Of a DNA stretch of 33,521 nt, positions 13,236 to 22,961 are shown piece after piece (position 1 is the stretch's first letter; each line of letters begins with the position of its first letter). Position numbers and translations under genes: made by a program. Origin of the DNA: Clostridium sp. (GTDB taxonomy: Bacteria; Bacillota; Clostridia; Clostridiales; Clostridiaceae); contig JALEZF010000077.1 of assembly GCA_022773025.1 (NCBI GenBank), positions 1 through 33,521 on the forward strand, in the 5' to 3' direction. Under the pieces are notes generated by a model, which was not told the origin of the DNA, searched no databases, and saw only the letters and a program-made list of their open reading frames with translations.

Positions 13236-14609
13236 TTGCCTTTTGACTTTTTAAAAGATACTAATAAAAAAGTTCATTTCATCGGTATTGGCGGCATAAG
13301 CATGAGTGGACTTGCTGCTATACTTCTTAAAAATGGATTTAAAGTTTCGGGTTCTGATATGAAAGAATCAGAAATAACTACTAGACTACAACAACATGGT
13401 GCAGAGATTCATATAGGTCACAGTGCAGATAACGTAAAAAATGTTGATTTAGTTGTTTACACAGCGGCTGTACCTTCAGATAATCCCGAACTTTTATTTG
13501 CTAAAAATAATAATATTCCTTTAATGGATAGAGCAGAATTTCTAGGTTATATAATGAAGGGACATAAGTATAATGTGGCTATCTCAGGAACCCATGGAAA
13601 AACTACAAGCACATCTATGCTTTCTCATATAGTTCTTAGTGCTGAGCTTGACCCAACCATATTAGTTGGTGCAGATCTAGACATAATAAATGGTAACTTC
13701 AGAACTGGCGAAAGCGAATATTTTATAACTGAAGCTTGCGAGTATAAAGCATCATTTTTAAGATTCTTCCCTTATATCGGAGTTATATTAAATATAGATG
13801 CAGACCACTTAGATTTCTATAAGGACATAGACGATATAGAGGCAACCTTTAAAAAGTTTGTTTCTATAATTCCTAATGATGGCTATGCTATAGGAAATGC
13901 AGACGATTTTAGAGTGAAGAGAGTTTTAGAAACAGCTTCTTGTAACACTTTAACCTTCGGATTAAACGAGGGCGACATAGTTGCTAAAGACATCCATTTT
14001 AACGGAAGAGGTTCTTCCTTCGATGTTGTCTACAAGGGAAAAGAGCTATACACTATTCACCTTCACGTTCCTGGAAGTCACAATGTGCTAAATGCTTTAA
14101 GCGCAGTTGCTTCTTCTATAGTCTTAGGAATTGATGAAAAAGCTGTAATAGAAGGATTAGAAGGCTTTAAAGGAGCACATAAAAGATTTGAAATCAAAGG
14201 CTCCAAGGATGATATAACAGTTATAGATGACTATGCTCATCATCCAACAGAAATAAAGGCAACCTTAAAAGCAGCTAGAGAATACCCTCACAATAAGATT
14301 GTGAGTATATTCCAACCACACACTTATTCAAGGACTATATCTCTATTAGATGAGTTCTCCGAGTCTTTTAATGACACTGATGAACTTATACTTATGGATA
14401 TATATGCTGCTAGAGAAAAAGATACTGGCATAGTAAGTTCTAATATGCTTGGAGATAAAATCCGCGCAAAGGGAATCAAATGTATCAATGTTCATTCTCA
14501 TGCGGAGGCTCTTGAAGTAGCAAAGCAAAAACTTTCCTCAGGAGATCTTCTCTTAACTGTAGGCGCTGGAGACGTAGTAAAAGTTGGCGAAATGTTCCTA
14601 CAAGATTAG
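13236..14609 (+). CDS. murC: UDP-N-acetylmuramate--L-alanine ligase
   Basis: ATP-dependent ligase that adds L-alanine to UDP-MurNAc in the cytosol, first of the Mur ligases. The 457-aa protein shows the N-terminal Rossmann motif [14 protein letters not shown], the P-loop GTHGKTTS (118-125), the central-domain stretch [10 protein letters not shown], and the C-terminal [14 protein letters not shown] start at 13236 is preferred: the site AAGGAG (13222-13227) is 8 bases before it. A GTG three codons earlier lies inside that site. The gene is divergent from purR. A TATAAT at 13190-13195 may be its -10, with no clear -35. It is followed by an intrinsic terminator. Confidence 0.97.
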
Positions 14610-14640
14610 TGAAAAATGAAGAGATAAGAGCGAAAAATTC

Positions 14641-14677
14641 AAAAGCACTGCCGATTTTAAAATCCCGGTGCTTTTTT
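14641..14677 (+). terminator. Intrinsic terminator after murC
   Basis: Stem AAAAGCACTG/CGGTGCTTTT with one wobble pair, an inner GAT/ATC stem, and a run of six T on the plus strand. Confidence 0.8.
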
Positions 14678-14853
14678 GTATTTTAAATCGATATGAATAT
14701 TCCAATTTCACCTCTCCACTTCTCTGCTGAACTCTAAACTCTTCATTAATCAATTATTTAGTAACCAATATCTTATTCATCTCATCACATGGTTTCTTAT
14801 TTTTTATAAATTCTGTAGTAGTACAGAATTATCTCAATTTTTCAAATTATCAA
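14678..14853. other. Intergenic stretch before the efflux leader, no gene seen
   Basis: No ORF with a ribosome binding site was found. Read on the minus strand, 14690-14750 is purine-rich (GAAGAGT, GAGTTCAG, GAGAAGTGGAGAGG) and resembles the degenerate purine-rich intergenic sequences seen in clostridial genomes. A related purine-rich stretch lies in plus orientation at 14610-14640. The only other structure is the palindrome at 14809-14830. Confidence 0.4.
14809..14830. repeat. Perfect palindrome upstream of the efflux promoter (operator-like)
   Basis: AATTCTGTA-GTAG-TACAGAATT, a 9-bp perfect inverted repeat with a 4-base centre, 23 bases upstream of the -35 box. No U-tract follows. The position fits an activator or upstream-acting repressor site. 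The cognate regulator is not in the window. Confidence 0.45.
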
Positions 14854-14882
14854 TTGACATAGCTCGTCCATGGTAATATTCT
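14854..14882 (+). promoter_or_regulatory. Predicted sigma-A promoter of the leader-efflux operon
   Basis: Perfect -35 TTGACA (14854-14859), 17-bp spacer, -10 TATTCT (14877-14882). Confidence 0.65.
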
Positions 14883-14922
14883 ATTATTGTAGTATTTATT
14901 TTTTAGAAAGGGAGGTAGGAAA

Positions 14923-15006
14923 ATGTTATTTATAATGAATGTATCAGTATGCTTAATAAATTTAGAGTTTACGTATAGCCCTATCTCTTGTGGAACTTAT
15001 TTTTAG
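14923..15006 (+). CDS. 27-aa leader peptide upstream of the ABC exporter genes
   Basis: Short ORF of 27 codons beginning MLFIMNVSVCL and ending SPISCGTYF-stop. It has one of the strongest ribosome binding sites in the window (GGGAGGTAGGAAA before the ATG) and lies between a clear promoter and two hairpin structures. The product is hydrophobic in its first half and has no visible domain. In Bacillus subtilis bmrB plays such a role for the BmrC/BmrD exporter: slow or stalled translation of the leader changes RNA folding and lets transcription continue. That this ORF works the same way is inference from layout. Confidence 0.7.
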   Translation: MLFIMNVSVCLINLEFTYSPISCGTYF

Positions 15007-15030
15007 TTGTTTGAAAAAAGTCTTCTAGAG

Positions 15031-15110
15031 GTCATGGGTTATCATATCCATGGTTTTTTTATGCTCAAATGTAGATTTTAGACCATGGATAACCATGGTC
15101 TTTTATTTTT
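15031..15110 (+). promoter_or_regulatory. Attenuator: two tandem terminator hairpins with an alternative antiterminator pairing
   Basis: Hairpin 1 (15032-15053) pairs CATGGGT with ATCCATG and is followed by seven T. Hairpin 2 (15081-15100) is a perfect 8-bp stem GACCATGG/CCATGGTC with loop ATAA and the tail TTTTATTTTT. The right half of hairpin 1 plus its loop (GGTTAT...CCATGG, 15037-15053) can instead pair with CCATGGATAACC (15083-15094). This forms about 12 bp and takes apart both terminators. Such mutually exclusive pairing downstream of a leader ORF is the hallmark of transcription attenuation. Confidence 0.7.
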
Positions 15111-15130
15111 GACAAAAAGGGGGAAATTAA

Positions 15131-16873
15131 ATGAAGAGAATTTTCAAGTATGTACTAAAGTACAAAATCCTGCTGATTGTTCCATCCGTAGCAATGCTTT
15201 TAAACATTCTATTGGATATGTTCAATCCTTACCTTACAAAAGAGATTGTAGACAAGGTTCTCATAGGGGGGAACGGTTCCTTGCTTGCACCTATACTCGC
15301 TGCCCTTCTAGGAATAACCCTAGGAAGAGCTGTTTTTGGATATATTAAAGAATTTATATTTGACTATCTATCAACTAAAGTAAATCACGATATAAAATGT
15401 GAGTTATTCAACCACATACAAAGTCTTCCATTTACTTATTTTGATAATACAAATACAGGTGAATTAATGTCTAGAATAGGCGAAGACGTAGAAGTAATCT
15501 GGAGAACAATATCCTTTGGTCTTAGATTATTCGTTGAAAACATCATTTACTTTGTTTTAGGTTCGGCTGCTTTATTTTATCTTAATGCAAAGCTAGCTAC
15601 AGCATGCATAGTTATCATGTTCCCTATAGCTTTTATAGCAATGAGATTTGAAAAGAAAATCTCTGCTGTATATGACAAAATAAGTGATCAAAATGCTGTT
15701 ATGAACACTACCGCTCAGGAAAATATAGCTGGTGTAAGACTAGTTAAAGCCTTTGCAAGAGAAGGTTACGAAAAGGAAAAATTCCTAAACATGAATAAAG
15801 ATTACTATAAGCTAAATATGAATCAAGCTCACGTTACAGGAAATCACCTTCCAACCATAGAGTTCTTGACCAACCTTTCAATCGTAATAATGATAACCTT
15901 TGGAGGATACCTAGTTATGGGAGAAGGCATCTCTATTGGAACTCTCGTTGCCTTCAATGGTTATATAGGAAATCTAATATGGCCTATGAGAAACTTAGGT
16001 GAATTATCTAATATGCTTGCTGAAAACAGCGCTTCTGCAAAGAAAATCTTTAAGATATTAGATAAAAAGCCTGACATCCATTCTCCTGAAGAAAATCAAT
16101 ACAATCCCGAAAAAATTTCTGGAGATATATCTTTTAAAGATGTTTCCTTTAAATACAATGATGAAATCATTCTTCACGATATAAATCTTGATATACAGGC
16201 TGGTTATACTGTAGCAATCATGGGAACTACAGGTTCTGGTAAATCATCCTTAATCAATCTAATCGGAAGATATTACGATGTATGTAGCGGAGAAGTCAAG
16301 ATTGATGGTGTTAACGTTAAAGATTATAACCTTCAAAAGTTAAGAGAAGCCATGTCTATCATACCTCAAGATACATTTTTATTCTCAGATACAATAGAAG
16401 GAAATATACGTTTTAGTAAGACTAACGCCACTAATGAAGAAATCGAAAGAGCTTGCTCACTTTCTTGTGCAAGTGAATTTATAAATGAATTAGAAGACGG
16501 TTATGAAACTATAATCGGTGAAAGAGGAATCGGCCTATCTGGTGGACAAAAACAAAGATTATGTATAGCAAGAGCCCTAGTAAAGGATTCCTCAATTTTA
16601 ATATTAGATGATTCAACCTCAGCCTTAGATATGGAAACAGAATTTACACTATTAAAAAATCTAAATGAAAATAAGTCCAAAGCCACAACCTTTATAATAG
16701 CTCATAGAATTTCTGCCGTTAAGAGCGCAGATCTAATAATATTCATGGATCATGGTACTATTGTAGAACGTGGTACTCATGAGGAGCTTTTAGCTCAAAA
16801 GGGTAAATACTACGAAATATACTGCGAACAATTTAAGGACTTCATAGAGGCTGAAGAGAAAGAGGTGGTTTAA
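15131..16873 (+). CDS. Heterodimeric multidrug-type ABC exporter, subunit with degenerate Walker B (BmrC/YheI-like)
   Basis: Half-transporter of 580 aa with six membrane segments (about 10-300) and a nucleotide-binding domain (about 330-570). Walker A is GTTGSGKS (365-372), signature LSGGQ (469-473) is canonical, and the H-loop His is 525. The Walker B motif reads ILILDD, so the catalytic Glu is replaced by Asp494. This is the usual mark of the subunit providing the degenerate ATP site in heterodimeric exporters such as BmrCD. The ATG has AAAGGGGGAAATTAA before it. The stop overlaps the next start (TAATG). Upstream are the leader ORF and attenuator, which suggest induction by translation-inhibiting drugs. 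The substrate is not deducible from sequence. Confidence 0.92.
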   Translation: MKRIFKYVLKYKILLIVPSVAMLLNILLDMFNPYLTKEIVDKVLIGGNGSLLAPILAALLGITLGRAVFGYIKEFIFDYLSTKVNHDIKCELFNHIQSLPFTYFDNTNTGELMSRIGEDVEVIWRTISFGLRLFVENIIYFVLGSAALFYLNAKLATACIVIMFPIAFIAMRFEKKISAVYDKISDQNAVMNTTAQENIAGVRLVKAFAREGYEKEKFLNMNKDYYKLNMNQAHVTGNHLPTIEFLTNLSIVIMITFGGYLVMGEGISIGTLVAFNGYIGNLIWPMRNLGELSNMLAENSASAKKIFKILDKKPDIHSPEENQYNPEKISGDISFKDVSFKYNDEIILHDINLDIQAGYTVAIMGTTGSGKSSLINLIGRYYDVCSGEVKIDGVNVKDYNLQKLREAMSIIPQDTFLFSDTIEGNIRFSKTNATNEEIERACSLSCASEFINELEDGYETIIGERGIGLSGGQKQRLCIARALVKDSSILILDDSTSALDMETEFTLLKNLNENKSKATTFIIAHRISAVKSADLIIFMDHGTIVERGTHEELLAQKGKYYEIYCEQFKDFIEAEEKEVV

Positions 16874-18663
16874 TGGCTAGAAATTCTACCAATCAAGATG
16901 AACAACTAGAATTTCATTCTAGACGATATATATTAAAAAGACTGGCTTCCTACTTGAAACCCTTTAAGGTCAAGGTAGCCATAGTAATACTTCTTATGAT
17001 ATTTGTAACAGCCTGTGGACTTATAAATCCATACCTGCTGAAAATGGCCCTTGATGATTTTGTTCCAAATTCAAATATTCGAGGACTTGTCATCATTGCC
17101 TTAGGTTTTATTGGAGTTAATCTAATCTCATTATTTGTTGCAAGACTTAGAATAATAATGATGTCAGAGGTTACAAACAGCATATTAATAACAATAAGGC
17201 ACGAGCTTTATAGCCACATCCAAAAGCTTTCCTTCTCCTTCTTTGACAATAGACCTGTAGGAAAAGTTCTAGCTCGTGTAATGGGCGATGTAAATGCATT
17301 AAAAACTTTATTTGCTACAAGTATAACAAGCTTTATACCCCAACTTTTAAGCTTAGTATTTGTAACTATTATAATGTTTTCTTTAAACTTTAACCTTGCC
17401 GTAGCTGCAATGATAATACTTCCTTTGTTAGGTTTCGGCCTATTCTCAATAGAGGCAAAATCTAGAGATCGATGGCTGGCTTATAGGCAAAAGCGTTCTA
17501 ACGTCAATGCTTATACTCACGAAGATTTTTCTGGTATAAAGGTTGTTCAAGGTTTTGCAGAAGAAGAAAAATCTGAATCTAGATTCCACAACATGGTTTC
17601 TGAAATGATGGATGCCTTCAACAGTGCTGTAAGACTAAATGATTTGTTCTGGCCTTTAGTAGAACTATCTTGGGGAATTGGAACAATACTAGTTTACTGG
17701 CTTGGTGCCAAGCTTATCGTATCCTCTGATATATCTATAGGAACTCTAGTGGCATTTTCCATGTATATAACCATGTTTTGGCGTCCTATAATGAATATCT
17801 CAGATTTCTATAATACCTTAATAACTAATTTTGCAGCAGCAGAAAGAATATTTGAGATAATGTCTGTTGAACCTGACATAGTATCTATAGAGGGTGCAAA
17901 AGAGATGCCAAAGATAAAAGGGACTGTGGAATTTAAGGATGTTTCCTTCGCTTATGATGACGATGATGTTACAGTACTAAAAAATGTATCTTTCAAGGTT
18001 AATCCTGGGGAAAGTATAGCTTTAGTTGGTGCTACCGGCGCTGGTAAGACTACTATAATAAATCTTTTAAGCAGATTTTATGATGTAACTGAAGGGGCAG
18101 TATTGATTGATGGAATAGATGTACACTCTGTCACCTTGGAATCACTAAGGAGTCAGATGGGAGTAATGCTTCAAGACACCTTCTTATTCTCTGATACAAT
18201 AAAGGAAAATATCCGTTACGGAAGGCTTGATGCAACTGACGAAGAAGTTATAGCTGCAGCCAAGGCCGTAAATGCTCATGACTTTATAATGAAGCTCGAA
18301 AATGGCTATGAAACTGAGGTAAACGAAAGAGGTTCTAGACTTTCAGTTGGACAAAGACAGCTTATTTCCTTTGCAAGAGCCCTTCTTGCTAACCCAAGAA
18401 TATTAATATTAGATGAAGCAACCTCTAATATTGATACCTATACAGAGATGCTGGTTCAAACTGGTATAAACAAGCTATTAATGGGAAGAACTTCTTTTGT
18501 AATAGCTCATAGGCTCTCAACCATTCGTGACTGCGACAAAATCATGGTTATAGATGATGGAAGAATCGTTGAGGCTGGTACTCACGATGAACTTTTGAAG
18601 CTTAAAGGCTACTATTATAATCTTTACATGGCTCAATATCGTTTCTTAAAGGAAGGAGCTTAA
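16873..18663 (+). CDS. Heterodimeric multidrug-type ABC exporter, subunit with catalytic Walker B (BmrD/YheH-like)
   Basis: Second half-transporter, 596 aa, with an N-terminal cytosolic extension of about 30 residues, six membrane segments and a nucleotide-binding domain. Walker A is GATGAGKT (386-393). Walker B is ILILDE with the catalytic Glu515, and the H-loop His is 546. The signature reads LSVGQ (490-494) instead of LSGGQ. In the heterodimer this altered signature faces the altered Walker B of the upstream subunit, so one ATP site is degenerate and one is canonical. Start and upstream stop overlap by one base, so translation is coupled. A 22-bp hairpin terminates the operon. Confidence 0.92.
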   Translation: MARNSTNQDEQLEFHSRRYILKRLASYLKPFKVKVAIVILLMIFVTACGLINPYLLKMALDDFVPNSNIRGLVIIALGFIGVNLISLFVARLRIIMMSEVTNSILITIRHELYSHIQKLSFSFFDNRPVGKVLARVMGDVNALKTLFATSITSFIPQLLSLVFVTIIMFSLNFNLAVAAMIILPLLGFGLFSIEAKSRDRWLAYRQKRSNVNAYTHEDFSGIKVVQGFAEEEKSESRFHNMVSEMMDAFNSAVRLNDLFWPLVELSWGIGTILVYWLGAKLIVSSDISIGTLVAFSMYITMFWRPIMNISDFYNTLITNFAAAERIFEIMSVEPDIVSIEGAKEMPKIKGTVEFKDVSFAYDDDDVTVLKNVSFKVNPGESIALVGATGAGKTTIINLLSRFYDVTEGAVLIDGIDVHSVTLESLRSQMGVMLQDTFLFSDTIKENIRYGRLDATDEEVIAAAKAVNAHDFIMKLENGYETEVNERGSRLSVGQRQLISFARALLANPRILILDEATSNIDTYTEMLVQTGINKLLMGRTSFVIAHRLSTIRDCDKIMVIDDGRIVEAGTHDELLKLKGYYYNLYMAQYRFLKEGA

Positions 18664-18706
18664 GATATTCTTACTTCAGATATAATTGAATACACTAAGA
18701 TACTTT

Positions 18707-18758
18707 AAAATAAAACAGGGTAGAAAGTAACAATGCACTTTCTACCCTGTTTTATTTT
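18707..18758. terminator. Bidirectional terminator between the efflux operon and the GGDEF gene
   Basis: Perfect 22-bp stem (18707-18728 with 18737-18758, core ACAGGGTAGAAAGT) and an 8-base loop. A-rich and T-rich flanks allow it to work on both strands. It touches the stop codon of the minus-strand gene. Confidence 0.92.
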
Positions 18759-20415
18759 ATAGGTAATTATTAATTGTAGTGGAAACAATATTGACCATGT
18801 TTTTTCCCATATGTTTAGAAATATAAAGTTGCTTATCTGCCATATCTATTGCAGTTTTTATATCTCTTAAGTCAGACGTATATCCTATAACTCCGCCAAT
18901 ACTTAAGGTCACATTTTCCGATTCACCCTCATTATACTTAATGTTTAATTTACTAACCTTATTTCTAAAGTCTTCCCCTATATTCAAAGCTTCTTCATAG
19001 GTTATATCCTTTTTAAAGAAAATAAACTCCTCTCCACCATACCTTCCAGTTAAAGATTTTAGAGATGAATTTTTCTCCTTTAATGCTCTAGCCACCTTCT
19101 TTAGACACTCGTCACCTTCAGCATGACCCCAATGATCATTAAACCTTTTAAAATCATCTATATCCATAATCATAATAAAAATACTTTGATTTCTATTCCT
19201 GCATTCAGCCCATAAATTGTTCATGCATGTATCTATAAGATGTCTATTTGCAAGACCTGTTAGATGATCATAATTAGCCTTTTCTTTTAAGGAATCATTC
19301 AATGATATTAGCTCTTTTACCTTTTCCTCATGGCTATGTATTTCATCTTCTAGCTGTTCATTTATAATTCTAAAAGACTCTATCTTAGAATTCATATTTA
19401 GTTTTGCTAGCTCAAACTTTATTATCTCAAGCTTGTATCCAATTGTCATTGCATTTATTTTTTCGTGGACATTATAATGCTTTTTTTGATACTCCAACGC
19501 AAGCTTATACTCTGAGTTCTCCTCATAGTAGTCAGCGAGTATAAAGTATATATAACTCAACTTTCTGTCGTTATTTATCTCACTGCAGTATTTTATCGCC
19601 TCATTAAAATAAGTCATTGCATCCTCTAAGTTTTCCTTTAAACTTATCCTTCCCATTCCTATGAGCGCATCTACTTCATAAAGTCCACCCTTTATATTTT
19701 TAAATCTCTTTAATGATTCCTTATAATATGATTTGGCCTTTTCATAGTCCTCTAGCTTTACATATACATTACCCATTTGGCTTTCTACTTGGCCCATCTC
19801 AATAAAATCTTTATGCTCTATTGCATTATCATAACTTTTAGTTAGATAGTCCATGGCCTCATCAAATCTCCCCATAGCAAAGTAGACTTTTCCTATATTC
19901 TTTAATATATATCCTTTATTTTCATCTAAGTTTTTCTCTTCACAAATATCATAAGCTTGCTTATTATATTCAAGAGCTTCATTAAATTTCTTAGATTCTC
20001 TATAGATTTCACCTATATTACTTAAAAGACACGTAAGCATATAGCTGTCACCTATATCATTACATAAAGTTAAAGCTTCAAACAAATATTGAATTGCTTT
20101 ATCATAAACACTGCTATAGTAATATGCAATTGAAATCATATTTAATGCCTTAACCTTTTGCTCCTTATCCCCTATACTTTCAAAGATCTCCAAAGCTTTA
20201 TATGCATGTTTTAGACATAGAGCGACTTGTCCTTTTACTTTATGTATCATACATAAACTCATTAGGCTCATACCTTGTTGTAATAGTAGATTATTTTGTA
20301 GTGAAAGGTTGTAAGCTTCCTCAGCTACTTCATAGGCTTTATCTAAATCTTTATCTAAAATCTTATCTATTTGCTCAATTTTACTGTTTACTTCATCCGA
20401 AATTTTTTTATCCAT
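18757..20415 (-). CDS. Cytosolic TPR-repeat diguanylate cyclase (GGDEF domain)
   Basis: The 552-aa protein has no signal peptide or membrane segment. Residues about 20-320 consist of tetratricopeptide-like helical repeats (for example LLSNIGEIYRES, YILKNIGKVYFAMGRFDEA, QMGNVYVKLEDYEKA), followed by a coiled coil (about 330-380) and a GGDEF domain (about 381-545). That domain has DHLTGLANR (383-391), the metal-binding MDIDDFKRFND (417-427) and the active-site motif GGEEF (460-464). The active motif is intact, so synthesis of cyclic di-GMP is expected. No RxxD inhibitory site is seen upstream of it. The TPR region probably receives a protein or peptide signal. ATG with CTGGAGG before it. A TTGAAA-17-AATAAT promoter lies upstream. 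Confidence 0.93.
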   Translation of the reverse strand: MDKKISDEVNSKIEQIDKILDKDLDKAYEVAEEAYNLSLQNNLLLQQGMSLMSLCMIHKVKGQVALCLKHAYKALEIFESIGDKEQKVKALNMISIAYYYSSVYDKAIQYLFEALTLCNDIGDSYMLTCLLSNIGEIYRESKKFNEALEYNKQAYDICEEKNLDENKGYILKNIGKVYFAMGRFDEAMDYLTKSYDNAIEHKDFIEMGQVESQMGNVYVKLEDYEKAKSYYKESLKRFKNIKGGLYEVDALIGMGRISLKENLEDAMTYFNEAIKYCSEINNDRKLSYIYFILADYYEENSEYKLALEYQKKHYNVHEKINAMTIGYKLEIIKFELAKLNMNSKIESFRIINEQLEDEIHSHEEKVKELISLNDSLKEKANYDHLTGLANRHLIDTCMNNLWAECRNRNQSIFIMIMDIDDFKRFNDHWGHAEGDECLKKVARALKEKNSSLKSLTGRYGGEEFIFFKKDITYEEALNIGEDFRNKVSKLNIKYNEGESENVTLSIGGVIGYTSDLRDIKTAIDMADKQLYISKHMGKNMVNIVSTTINNYL

Positions 20416-20651: not shown

Positions 20652-21164
20652 ATGAGTTATACAACTGATAGGCAACCTCAAGGACTTTTAAATGACACTG
20701 GAACTTTGCTTAGAGAAGGAATGATTGCAGAAATAGTTGCTATTAATGACTACACTAGATTTATCAGTGCTACAGATAATAAAGAAGTTAAAGATTTATT
20801 CCATCACATAAGAGAAGAAGAAAAGCATCATTACATGGAATTTCTTGATGCTTTAAGATCTATAGACGAAGAGGAATGCAAATTAGCTAAGGAGTTCTCA
20901 GAGCATCCTCCAATATCTGAAAGAGATAAATATAAAGATGAAAGTCACATGAAAAGTTCAAAGAATGGTCTTCTTACTGACATTAGAGATGCTATAAAAG
21001 GCGAATTAGAAGCCATAGTTCTCTATGAGGATCTTATTTCTCATCTTAGGGATGAAACGTTAATTGAACTGATCCGCCATATAACAAAAGAAGAAAAGGA
21101 ACATACAGAAGAACTTACGAAAGCTTTAACAATCTTAGACAAAGATAAGTACGAATCTATATAA
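20652..21164 (+). CDS. Ferritin-like / rubrerythrin-type diiron domain protein
   Basis: Four-helix protein of 170 aa with the carboxylate-histidine pattern of ferritin-like diiron proteins. It has Glu27 in helix 1, E56xxH59 in REEEKHH, Glu118/Glu120 in GELEAIVLYEDL, and E148xxH151 in KEEKEH. The two-fold repeat of E...ExxH supports a bound di-iron centre. There is no C-terminal rubredoxin domain, so it is not a full rubrerythrin. A role in oxidative-stress defence or iron handling is the usual expectation but is not shown by the sequence. The gene stands alone, divergent from the GGDEF gene, with TAGGGGATTTT before the ATG and a terminator behind. Confidence 0.85.
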   Translation: MSYTTDRQPQGLLNDTGTLLREGMIAEIVAINDYTRFISATDNKEVKDLFHHIREEEKHHYMEFLDALRSIDEEECKLAKEFSEHPPISERDKYKDESHMKSSKNGLLTDIRDAIKGELEAIVLYEDLISHLRDETLIELIRHITKEEKEHTEELTKALTILDKDKYESI

Positions 21165-21259: not shown

Positions 21260-21541
21260 ATATAATAAATTATGGCTGTGATGAGAAGAGTAGATATAAG
21301 AGGTAATCTTAGCGAGCGAGGGATGGTGAAAGCCTTGTATGAAACTTATATTGAAGAACATCTCTGAGCTTCTAACCGAAATCTTTTTAGAGAGTAGACT
21401 TAGACGGAGTCAACCCGTTATATGTTGAACTGCATTGTATTGTGCAGATATGAGCGGCTGTTTTTCAGCAAATTGGGTGGTACCACGGAATTATACCTTT
21501 CGTCCCTTATATTTTTAGGGATGGAAGGTTTTTTTATTTTA
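21260..21541 (+). promoter_or_regulatory. T-box riboswitch (tRNA-Asn sensing) controlling asnS
   Basis: The leader starts with GCTGTGATGAGAAGAGTA, typical of T-box stem I, followed by GATGGTGAAAGCC of the distal stem I. The segment GAGCTTCTAACCGAA places an AAC (Asn) specifier codon at 21374-21376. The T-box antiterminator consensus TTGGGTGGTACCACGG is at 21473-21488. The terminator pairs CCTTTCGTCCC (21496-21506) with GGGATGGAAGG (21518-21528) and runs into seven T. Uncharged tRNA-Asn should stabilise the antiterminator and turn on asnS. Confidence 0.95.
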
Positions 21542-21569
21542 TATTCATATATTGAAAGGAGTTTTTACA

Positions 21570-22961
21570 ATGGAAAAGATATCTATAAAAGAACTTTATA
21601 GAAACAGTGACAAATATATAGATAGTGAAGTATCTATATGCGGTTGGATTAGAACACTTAGGGATTCTAAGACTTTTGGATTCATAGAATTAAATGACGG
21701 TACATTTTTCAAAAATCTTCAAATAGTTTTTGATGACGCTCTAGAAAACTTTAAGGAGGTTTCAAAGCTTCCTATAAGTTCATCACTTACAGTTGTAGGA
21801 AAAGTAGTTGCTACTCCACAGGCAAAGCAGCCTTTTGAAATAAAAGCTACTGCTATAGTTATTGAAGGATTATCAAACTCTGATTATCCTCTTCAAAAGA
21901 AGAGACATAGCTTTGAGTACCTTAGATCAATAGCTCACTTAAGACCAAGAAGTAATGCATTTTCAGCAGTATTCAGAGTAAGATCTGTAGCTGCTTATGC
22001 TATCCACAAATTCTTCCAAGAAAGAGGATTTGTATACACTCATACTCCAATAATAACTGGAAGCGACTGCGAAGGTGCAGGAGAAATGTTCCAACTTACA
22101 ACTTTAGACCTTAACGATATTCCAAAAACTGAAGACGGAGCTATAGACTTCAAAGAAGACTTCTTTGGAAAAGAAACTAACCTTACAGTTTCTGGTCAGT
22201 TAAACGCTGAATGTTTCGCTTTAGCATTTAAGAATGTTTATACTTTTGGACCAACTTTCAGAGCTGAAAACTCAAATACAGCAAGACACGCTGCTGAGTT
22301 CTGGATGATAGAGCCTGAAATAGCATTTGCTGATCTTCAAGATGACATGGAGCTTGCAGAAGATATGCTTAAGTATGTTATAAAGTATGTTATGGATGAA
22401 TGTCCTGAAGAGATGCAATTCTTCAGCTCATTTGTTGACAAAGGATTATTAGATAGATTAACTCATGTAGTTTCTTCTGATTTCGGAAGAGTAAGCTACA
22501 CTGAAGCTGTAGAAATTTTAGAGAAGGCTGACAAGAAGTTTGAATACCCAGTATCATGGGGTTCTGACCTTCAAACTGAGCATGAAAGATACTTAACAGA
22601 AGAAGTATTTAAGAGACCAGTTTTCATAACTGACTATCCAAAGGAAATCAAGGCATTCTATATGAGAATGAATGATGATGGAAAGACTGTTGCAGCTACT
22701 GACTGCTTAGTTCCTGGTATAGGAGAAATTATCGGTGGAAGCCAAAGAGAAGAAAGACTTGACGTTCTTGAAAAGAGAATTGAAGAGCTTGGACTTCACA
22801 AGGAAGATTACTGGTGGTATTTAGAGCTTAGAAAATACGGTGGAACAAAACACGCTGGTTTTGGATTAGGCTTTGAAAGACTTATTATGTACATCACTGG
22901 AATGAGCAACATCAGAGACGTTATACCATTCCCAAGAACCACTGGAACTGCAGAATTCTAA
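21570..22961 (+). CDS. asnS: Asparaginyl-tRNA synthetase
   Basis: Class IIb synthetase charging tRNA-Asn. The 463-aa protein has an N-terminal OB-fold anticodon-binding domain (about 1-105; [20 protein letters not shown]), motif 2 with FRAEN (230-234), and motif 3 GFGLGFERL close to the C-terminus. A lysine- and acid-rich insert between QLTTLDL and LTVSGQL is as expected for bacterial AsnRS rather than AspRS. The ATG at 21570 is chosen for the AAAGGAG site 8 bases upstream. An in-frame TTG six codons earlier overlaps the region before that site. Preceded by a T-box with an AAC specifier, which agrees with the assignment. Confidence 0.98.

Follow-up and report, generated by a model that had tools for sequence, protein, structure and literature searches.

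Ribosome-mediated transcription attenuation is a class of mechanism that is already known, and its closest described examples are summarized here. In Bacillus subtilis, bmrCD, preceded by the bmrB leader, is induced by ribosome-targeting antibiotics, and the terminator lies inside the leader coding region (Reilman 2014, PMC4191407). The vmlR leader has a three-state logic: a three-codon uORF (MIN) sits in an anti-antiterminator stem, with its Shine-Dalgarno sequence (SD) single-stranded before the first stem, and an arrested ribosome breaks that stem, so that the antiterminator forms, the terminator is avoided and an ABCF protein is made (PMC9226507). The cplR leader of Clostridia likewise carries its uORF, MR[I/M], in a 5' hairpin followed by a terminator, and ribosome arrest on this uORF brings about induction; the SD of the main gene, again an ABCF gene, is masked by that same terminator hairpin, and a figure legend of that paper names anti-SD elements (PMC10201436). 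The mef(E)/mel efflux genes are under a transcription attenuation that needs both a macrolide and a leader peptide with an R-x-R motif (MTASMRLR); this leader is eight residues long, has another RNA structure and resides on mobile elements, and erm(K) is cited in the same paper as also having two terminators (PMC4335068).

Here we analyse a leader in a 33,521-nt stretch of DNA from Clostridium sp. (the window) and its relatives. Like bmrB, it is a translated leader (here predicted) before a heterodimeric ABC multidrug exporter (here assigned by sequence). Unlike in bmrB, both terminators, at 15027 and 15080, come after the uORF stop codon at 15006, and the antiterminator strand sits in the uORF and doubles as an anti-SD. 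The predicted three-state logic resembles that of vmlR, and a uORF in a 5' hairpin with a terminator and induction by arrest recalls cplR; with 27 codons and an ABC exporter that has membrane domains, however, the locus falls outside the vmlR/cplR type, whose uORF of some three codons precedes an ABCF gene. Compared with vmlR, the uORF is longer, at 24 to 50 codons, one of its internal segments would pair with the SD itself, and the controlled genes are an exporter pair. Control of efflux genes by transcription attenuation would be shared with mef(E)/mel. The predicted features that set the element apart from bmrB, vmlR, cplR and mef(E) are thus an SD-pairing segment in a longer uORF that is reused as antiterminator, terminators placed after the uORF, and, in one group of relatives (the Clostridiaceae-type set below), terminators in tandem.

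Among the literature matches listed, judged by title and the start of the abstract, we found no description of the element in clostridia, nor did we see it in excerpts of the structured-RNA surveys PMC11109978 and PMC8632094 or the attenuator survey PMC2965389. In this literature, neither the wiring nor its spread in clostridia was found. Small RNAs next to ABC transporters are mentioned in PMC5171806 with reference to a survey of clostridial small RNAs (Chen 2011, mBio), and that survey may already contain some of these leaders as short RNAs.

The leader and its operon in the window

We propose, with a probability of roughly three in four, that the region upstream of the exporter genes is a ribosome-mediated transcription attenuator, in which the position of the ribosome would select between two mutually exclusive pairings, A:B and B:C. 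The parts are as follows:

14854..14882, + strand: promoter TTGACA-17-TATTCT (TTGACA 14854-14859, 17 nt, TATTCT 14877-14882; 10/12 match)
14910..14919, + strand: segment A, the uORF SD GGGAGGTAGG; partner B (A:B -14.1 kcal/mol, with covariation)
14923..15006, + strand: predicted uORF (leader peptide) of 27 codons, MLFIMNVSVCLINLEFTYSPISCGTYF, with ATG at 14923 and TAG at 15006; uORFs are present in relatives
14973..14989, + strand: segment B, within the uORF; predicted partners A (via 14980-14989) or C (via 14973-14988), from covariation and folding
15027..15045, + strand: segment C, the 5' arm and loop of terminator 1; predicted partners D or B
15046..15060, + strand: segment D, the 3' arm and T run of terminator 1; possible partner E
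15080..15091, + strand: segment E, the 5' arm and part of the loop of terminator 2 (hairpin, covariation)
15092..15109, + strand: segment F, the 3' arm and T-rich tail of terminator 2 (hairpin)
15131..16873, + strand: ABC1, an ABC exporter half-transporter with Walker B ILILDD, in which Asp replaces the usual catalytic Glu
16873..18663, + strand: ABC2, the partner half-transporter with Walker B ILILDE; best half-transporter match TM_0288

This is the layout of an attenuator: a promoter, a short predicted uORF with an SD, and an intrinsic terminator before the main gene. The promoter, the 27-codon uORF with its strong SD, the two terminator hairpins and the ABC pair are all where the original prediction had placed them. 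Hairpin 1 spans 15027-15058, and its run of seven T occupies 15054-15060. Hairpin 2 (15080-15101) is likewise present and is followed by the T-rich tail TTTATTTTTG, but its stem is of 9 bp rather than the perfect 8 bp first described. In the window alone, the two-hairpin stretch 15025-15112 and the hairpin 2 stretch fold better than all shuffles (z -4.5 and -4.0, each 0/200 as good); hairpin 1 alone reaches a z of only -1.8 (10/200), and the whole leader taken as a single fold is unremarkable (z -1.5, 17/200). Terminator-like sites in 14000-19500 are hardly above chance (3 vs 2.1 in shuffles). Promoter-like sites in the same interval are not above chance (19 vs 23.9 in shuffles), so that the promoter call in the window rests on its conservation. 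No Rfam family comes near its gathering score in 14840-15160, and the uORF peptide matches nothing in Pfam or PADLOC.

The reading frames of ABC1 and ABC2 share one base, and both proteins have membrane and ATPase domains. An Asp at the end of Walker B in one subunit and a Glu in the other fit a heterodimeric exporter in which one of the ATP sites is degenerate. The top PDB scores of both subunits are to full-length eukaryotic P-glycoprotein-type transporters. Among half-transporters, ABC1 scores 345 bits with both YheI (BmrC) and Sav1866, and ABC2 scores 429 bits with TM_0288, 404 with Sav1866 and 365 with YheH (BmrD); by these scores, ABC2 stands nearer to TM_0288 than to BmrD, and they do not by themselves make the pair orthologues of BmrCD. 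By sequence, the pair resembles multidrug-type exporters, and drug export would be its presumed role.

The next gene lies on the opposite strand: at 18757-20415 (-), convergent with the ABC operon, is a GGDEF (diguanylate cyclase) protein with a TPR-like N-terminal part. Farther along, 20652-21161 (+) encodes a protein matching the EncB encapsulin ferritin-like cargo family (97.4 bits, cut-off 90). The sole Rfam match of the whole window is a T-box leader (RF00230, 115.9 bits) at 21269-21510 (+), upstream of an ORF at 21552-22961.

Conservation and pairing partners in related loci

ABC1 homologues were found in 58/58 related genomes, with other ABC proteins making up many of the hits, and a scan of a genome collection gave the best 80 of 590 relatives. 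We examined 105 loci with at least 200 nt of upstream DNA, the window's own included, after excluding three duplicates (L031, L033, L038) and, for want of upstream DNA, L039 and L077. Within 650 nt, a uORF with an SD and a later terminator was present in 59 of them and not found in 46, one of which (L023) has a uORF farther upstream. An A:B score of at least 15, together with a G+C filter on the terminator, then defined a set of 54 of the 105 loci, window included, in which a related exporter is preceded by a terminator, an SD-pairing segment and a uORF; 22 loci from the pattern search described below bring the total to 76. Of the 54, 25 form a Clostridiaceae-type set and the remaining 29 the other set, 16 of whose members are labelled Lachnospiraceae. 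A second hairpin is present in 24/25 loci of the former vs 8/29 of the latter. An ABC2-like gene lies directly 3' of ABC1 in 52/54 loci, and the remaining two are too short to tell.

Upstream of the uORF, 43/54 loci have a promoter of at least 10/12, where shuffles predict 3.5. A transcription start downstream of both hairpins, which would have spoken against the original prediction, is not supported: a promoter-like site between the last hairpin and ABC1 was found in 0/44 loci with at least 35 nt there, a weak test, given that only 0.8 was expected and zero says little. With uORF, hairpins and promoter conserved in relatives, the original proposal of a leader-peptide transcription attenuator before the exporter pair is borne out in outline.

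Segment B, which lies late in most uORFs, is complementary to the uORF's own SD. Clostridial examples pair CCTATCTC or CCTACCTC (B) with GAGGTAGG (SD), a Lachnospiraceae example pairs TTACCTC (B) with GAGGTAA (SD), and GCCTC with GAGGC is common to both sets. Taking the best uORF of each locus, an A:B score of at least 18.5 is reached by 42/59 loci vs 25/434 ordinary gene starts treated as pseudo-uORFs, and one of at least 15 by 55/59 vs 114/434; the four loci below 15 are L005, L021, L024 and L103. Against shuffled uORFs, p is at most 0.05 in 43/59 loci, and 16/59 miss it. B and a few preceding bases can pair as well with C in terminator 1 (its 5' arm plus loop), as in AATAGTCC with GGACTATT (L011) or CTCAGCC with GGCTGAG (L018). 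Compared with shuffled B, this pairing is among the best 5% in only 33/54 loci.

Further evidence comes from exchanging partners between loci. Over the 54 loci, A:B averages -12.99 kcal/mol with its own partner and -10.50 with swapped ones (z -9.5), and B:C -12.06 vs -7.50 (z -13.3), with the own partner of B:C beating the median partner in 52/54; these z values and those that follow are overstated because the permutations ignore relatedness (L001 and L002 are of the same genus, and further rows are also related). In the other set, A:B and B:C give z values of -7.7 and -7.2. The Clostridiaceae-type set gives -7.8 for B:C, -5.3 for D:E (n=24), -2.5 for A:B and -1.7 for C:F; the weak A:B covariation there (own partner better than the median in 12/25) is explained by segment A, which hardly varies. 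The core of A:B is partly paired by construction, since A:B was used in choosing the best of several uORFs per locus. Its two outer positions are paired in 48/52 and 37/52 loci (36.1 and 20.5 expected), and where the fifth position of the SD GAGGT/C is C, it is always opposite G (7/7 loci), a compensating change.

The element can also be recovered blindly. The pattern GAGGTAGG-ATG-CCTRYCTY with fixed gap ranges matched 40 times in 206 family genomes, once each, vs 11 matches for its backward version. Among the 30 matches read as loci, six of which repeat loci already known, 28 lie upstream of an ABC1 homologue, counting L122, whose ABC1 match is partial and weak; of the other two, one stops at a contig end and one is chance. 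The exact Clostridiaceae-type pattern thus appears almost confined to this exporter operon (28 of 30 loci). A Lachnospiraceae-type pattern matched 7 times in 291 genomes of the class vs 4 times backward, and is therefore near chance. One of its matches, L144, has an apparent real leader (MIIRVRLNN..., uORF MIIRVRLNNLVNRNNVVTSLEFAL), accompanied by two terminator-like hairpins, ahead of an ABC1 homologue that is only 36% identical; the element may therefore reach beyond close orthologues. In another locus (L004, reverse complement), two tandem uORFs lie about 480 to 270 nt before ABC1; each has the SD GGAGGTAGG and encodes a stretch NSPIF or DNPTF, and several terminator-like hairpins come after them. 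This is perhaps a doubled attenuator.

Ribosome position and the predicted switch

The proposed mechanism would work as follows. Transcription from the promoter at 14854 would yield an RNA whose uORF carries B, the alternative partner of A or C. With no ribosome on the uORF, A:B would form, C would be left to D, and transcription would terminate. A ribosome reading through would first cover B, after which A:B could re-form behind it, again giving termination. A ribosome stopped within roughly four codons of the start, or another queued over the SD, would cover A and leave B free; B would then take C, releasing D, which could take E, and the polymerase would read into the exporter genes. These positions are estimates for a footprint of about 15 nt on either side of the P site. 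As a counterpoint, most of B would stay exposed with a ribosome at the stop codon.

Folding with and without a ribosome, the check suggested with the original prediction, favours such a switch at terminator 1. The window RNA was folded from an assumed start at 14889 with the ribosome represented as an unpaired stretch. For RNA ends at 15052-15060 and no ribosome, A:B (8-9 pairs) coexists with C:D (7-8). Placing a ribosome at codon 1 or codon 4 lets B:C displace C:D (9-12 and 0.2-3.4 pairs, respectively), and B:C also prevails with queued ribosomes; a ribosome at codon 8 gives mixed folds with no clear flip, and one on B or at the stop codon gives C:D (7-10 pairs). In these folds, A:B would make the untranslated leader terminate, and covering A would be the flip. 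B:C, predicted from covariation and from folding at terminator 1, thus has the character of a mutually exclusive antiterminator overlapping the uORF.

At other RNA ends, the folds are less clear. At ends 15043 and 15092, B:C is ahead at equilibrium even without a ribosome, and at 15092 D:E (-16.7 kcal/mol) is ahead in all ribosome states. At 15105 the states are mixed: a ribosome over codon 1 leaves both terminator hairpins in the single best fold, while the ensemble favours B:C with E:F about half formed. Because of this ambiguity, the model leans on terminator 1 and on timing that lies outside equilibrium folds. Folding hence backs the switch at terminator 1 and, less clearly, at terminator 2; together with the partner exchanges, the structure and its wiring are well supported as predictions.

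Inducers, the uORF peptide and alternative explanations

Under the attenuation model, the most likely inducers are drugs that arrest ribosomes near the start codon. The first codons of the uORFs are consistent with this. R/K-x-R/K, a motif at which ribosomes arrest under ketolides and, less strictly, under macrolides (PMC8298421), occurs within residues 1-8 in 17/54 loci vs 4.2 (sd 1.9) in shuffles, and the spacings ++, +xx+ and +xxx+ show no enrichment in the same residues of these loci. Ordinary genes have it in 43/328, also above their own shuffles (29.6); the difference between uORFs and ordinary genes gives a Fisher p of 0.001 with relatedness ignored. In species whose uORF starts with R/K-x-R/K, macrolides or ketolides would be the inducers. 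In other species, the window's included, they are possibly lincosamides or pleuromutilins; the window uORF has neither K nor R, and so no R/K-x-R/K, and for this reason its inducer cannot be read off the sequence.

The same pairings could instead report a general slowing of translation or an amino-acid shortage rather than antibiotics, an explanation that we consider unlikely. It draws on the great variation among uORF sequences and on a mechanism that needs only slow ribosomes near the start, and vmlR is induced by compromised protein synthesis (PMC9226507). Nevertheless, R/K-x-R/K is enriched near the uORF start, the controlled genes resemble multidrug-type exporters, and the uORFs, viewed by eye and uncounted, contain no long run of a single amino acid.

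A second explanation concerns the other end of the uORF. The original prediction suspected a stalling motif in the C-terminal residues SPISCGTYF and saw the switch in a pairing between the two hairpins, as in a classic two-hairpin attenuator, in which a ribosome stalled at that motif would let C pair with F. Such a C:F pairing does exist in the window (-16.4 kcal/mol) and, over the 32 loci with a second hairpin, beats swapped partners (z -3.0, 2/2000). In the Clostridiaceae-type set, however, where the second hairpin is the rule, 73/2000 permutations are as good, and C:F falls well behind B:C and D:E by own-vs-swapped partners; it was rejected as the main switch. Moreover, a ribosome at the uORF end would not be expected, by footprint size, to reach hairpin 1.

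The peptide itself offers little to such a motif. Among the 54 loci, B lies in the main frame of 42 uORFs; there it mostly encodes P-x-S or I/F/V-T-S, and none of the six positions past the S has a residue shared by more than 6/42. B is read in the main frame in 61/74 loci and in another in 13/74, several of these belonging to related pairs. Since B changes frame and the residues after the S vary, the conservation of the uORF end is mostly explained by RNA pairing, and SPISCGTYF was discarded as an arrest motif. The single frame of B in 61/74 loci speaks for the C:F explanation and could reflect a peptide effect or common descent. A HEITS-x-Y stretch is alike in a few Lachnospiraceae-type loci (L054, L063, L089, L096). 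Taken together, a switch between C and F driven by stalling at the uORF end seems quite improbable.

Least probable of the three is that the hairpins are merely terminators or insulators, with the uORF a remnant and expression set elsewhere: intergenic hairpins with T runs are common, murC upstream of the element has its own terminator-like repeat, and the attenuation model is built on sequence comparison and folding rather than on transcripts, but A:B and B:C covariation, the position of the promoter and a blind pattern that recovers the same operon all argue against it.

Returning to attenuation by A:B and B:C, a broader joint reading, to which we give even odds, is that these leaders form a large clostridial family of self-closing attenuators. 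The anti-SD late in the uORF would shut the uORF's own start site and double as the antiterminator strand; because the two are one segment, the RNA would sense the place of the ribosome (absent, early or late) rather than the peptide. The first codons would be tuned in each species to the drugs it meets, with R/K-x-R/K for macrolides or ketolides in many Lachnospiraceae and clostridia. If this is true, the place of a ribosome on a decoy ORF turns on an exporter pair in many gut and soil clostridia, which would explain an inducible intrinsic drug tolerance missed by searches for known regulators or Rfam families. The element would then be a compact three-state RNA with clean predictions, and an early R/K-x-R/K would offer a route to predicting inducers from sequence.
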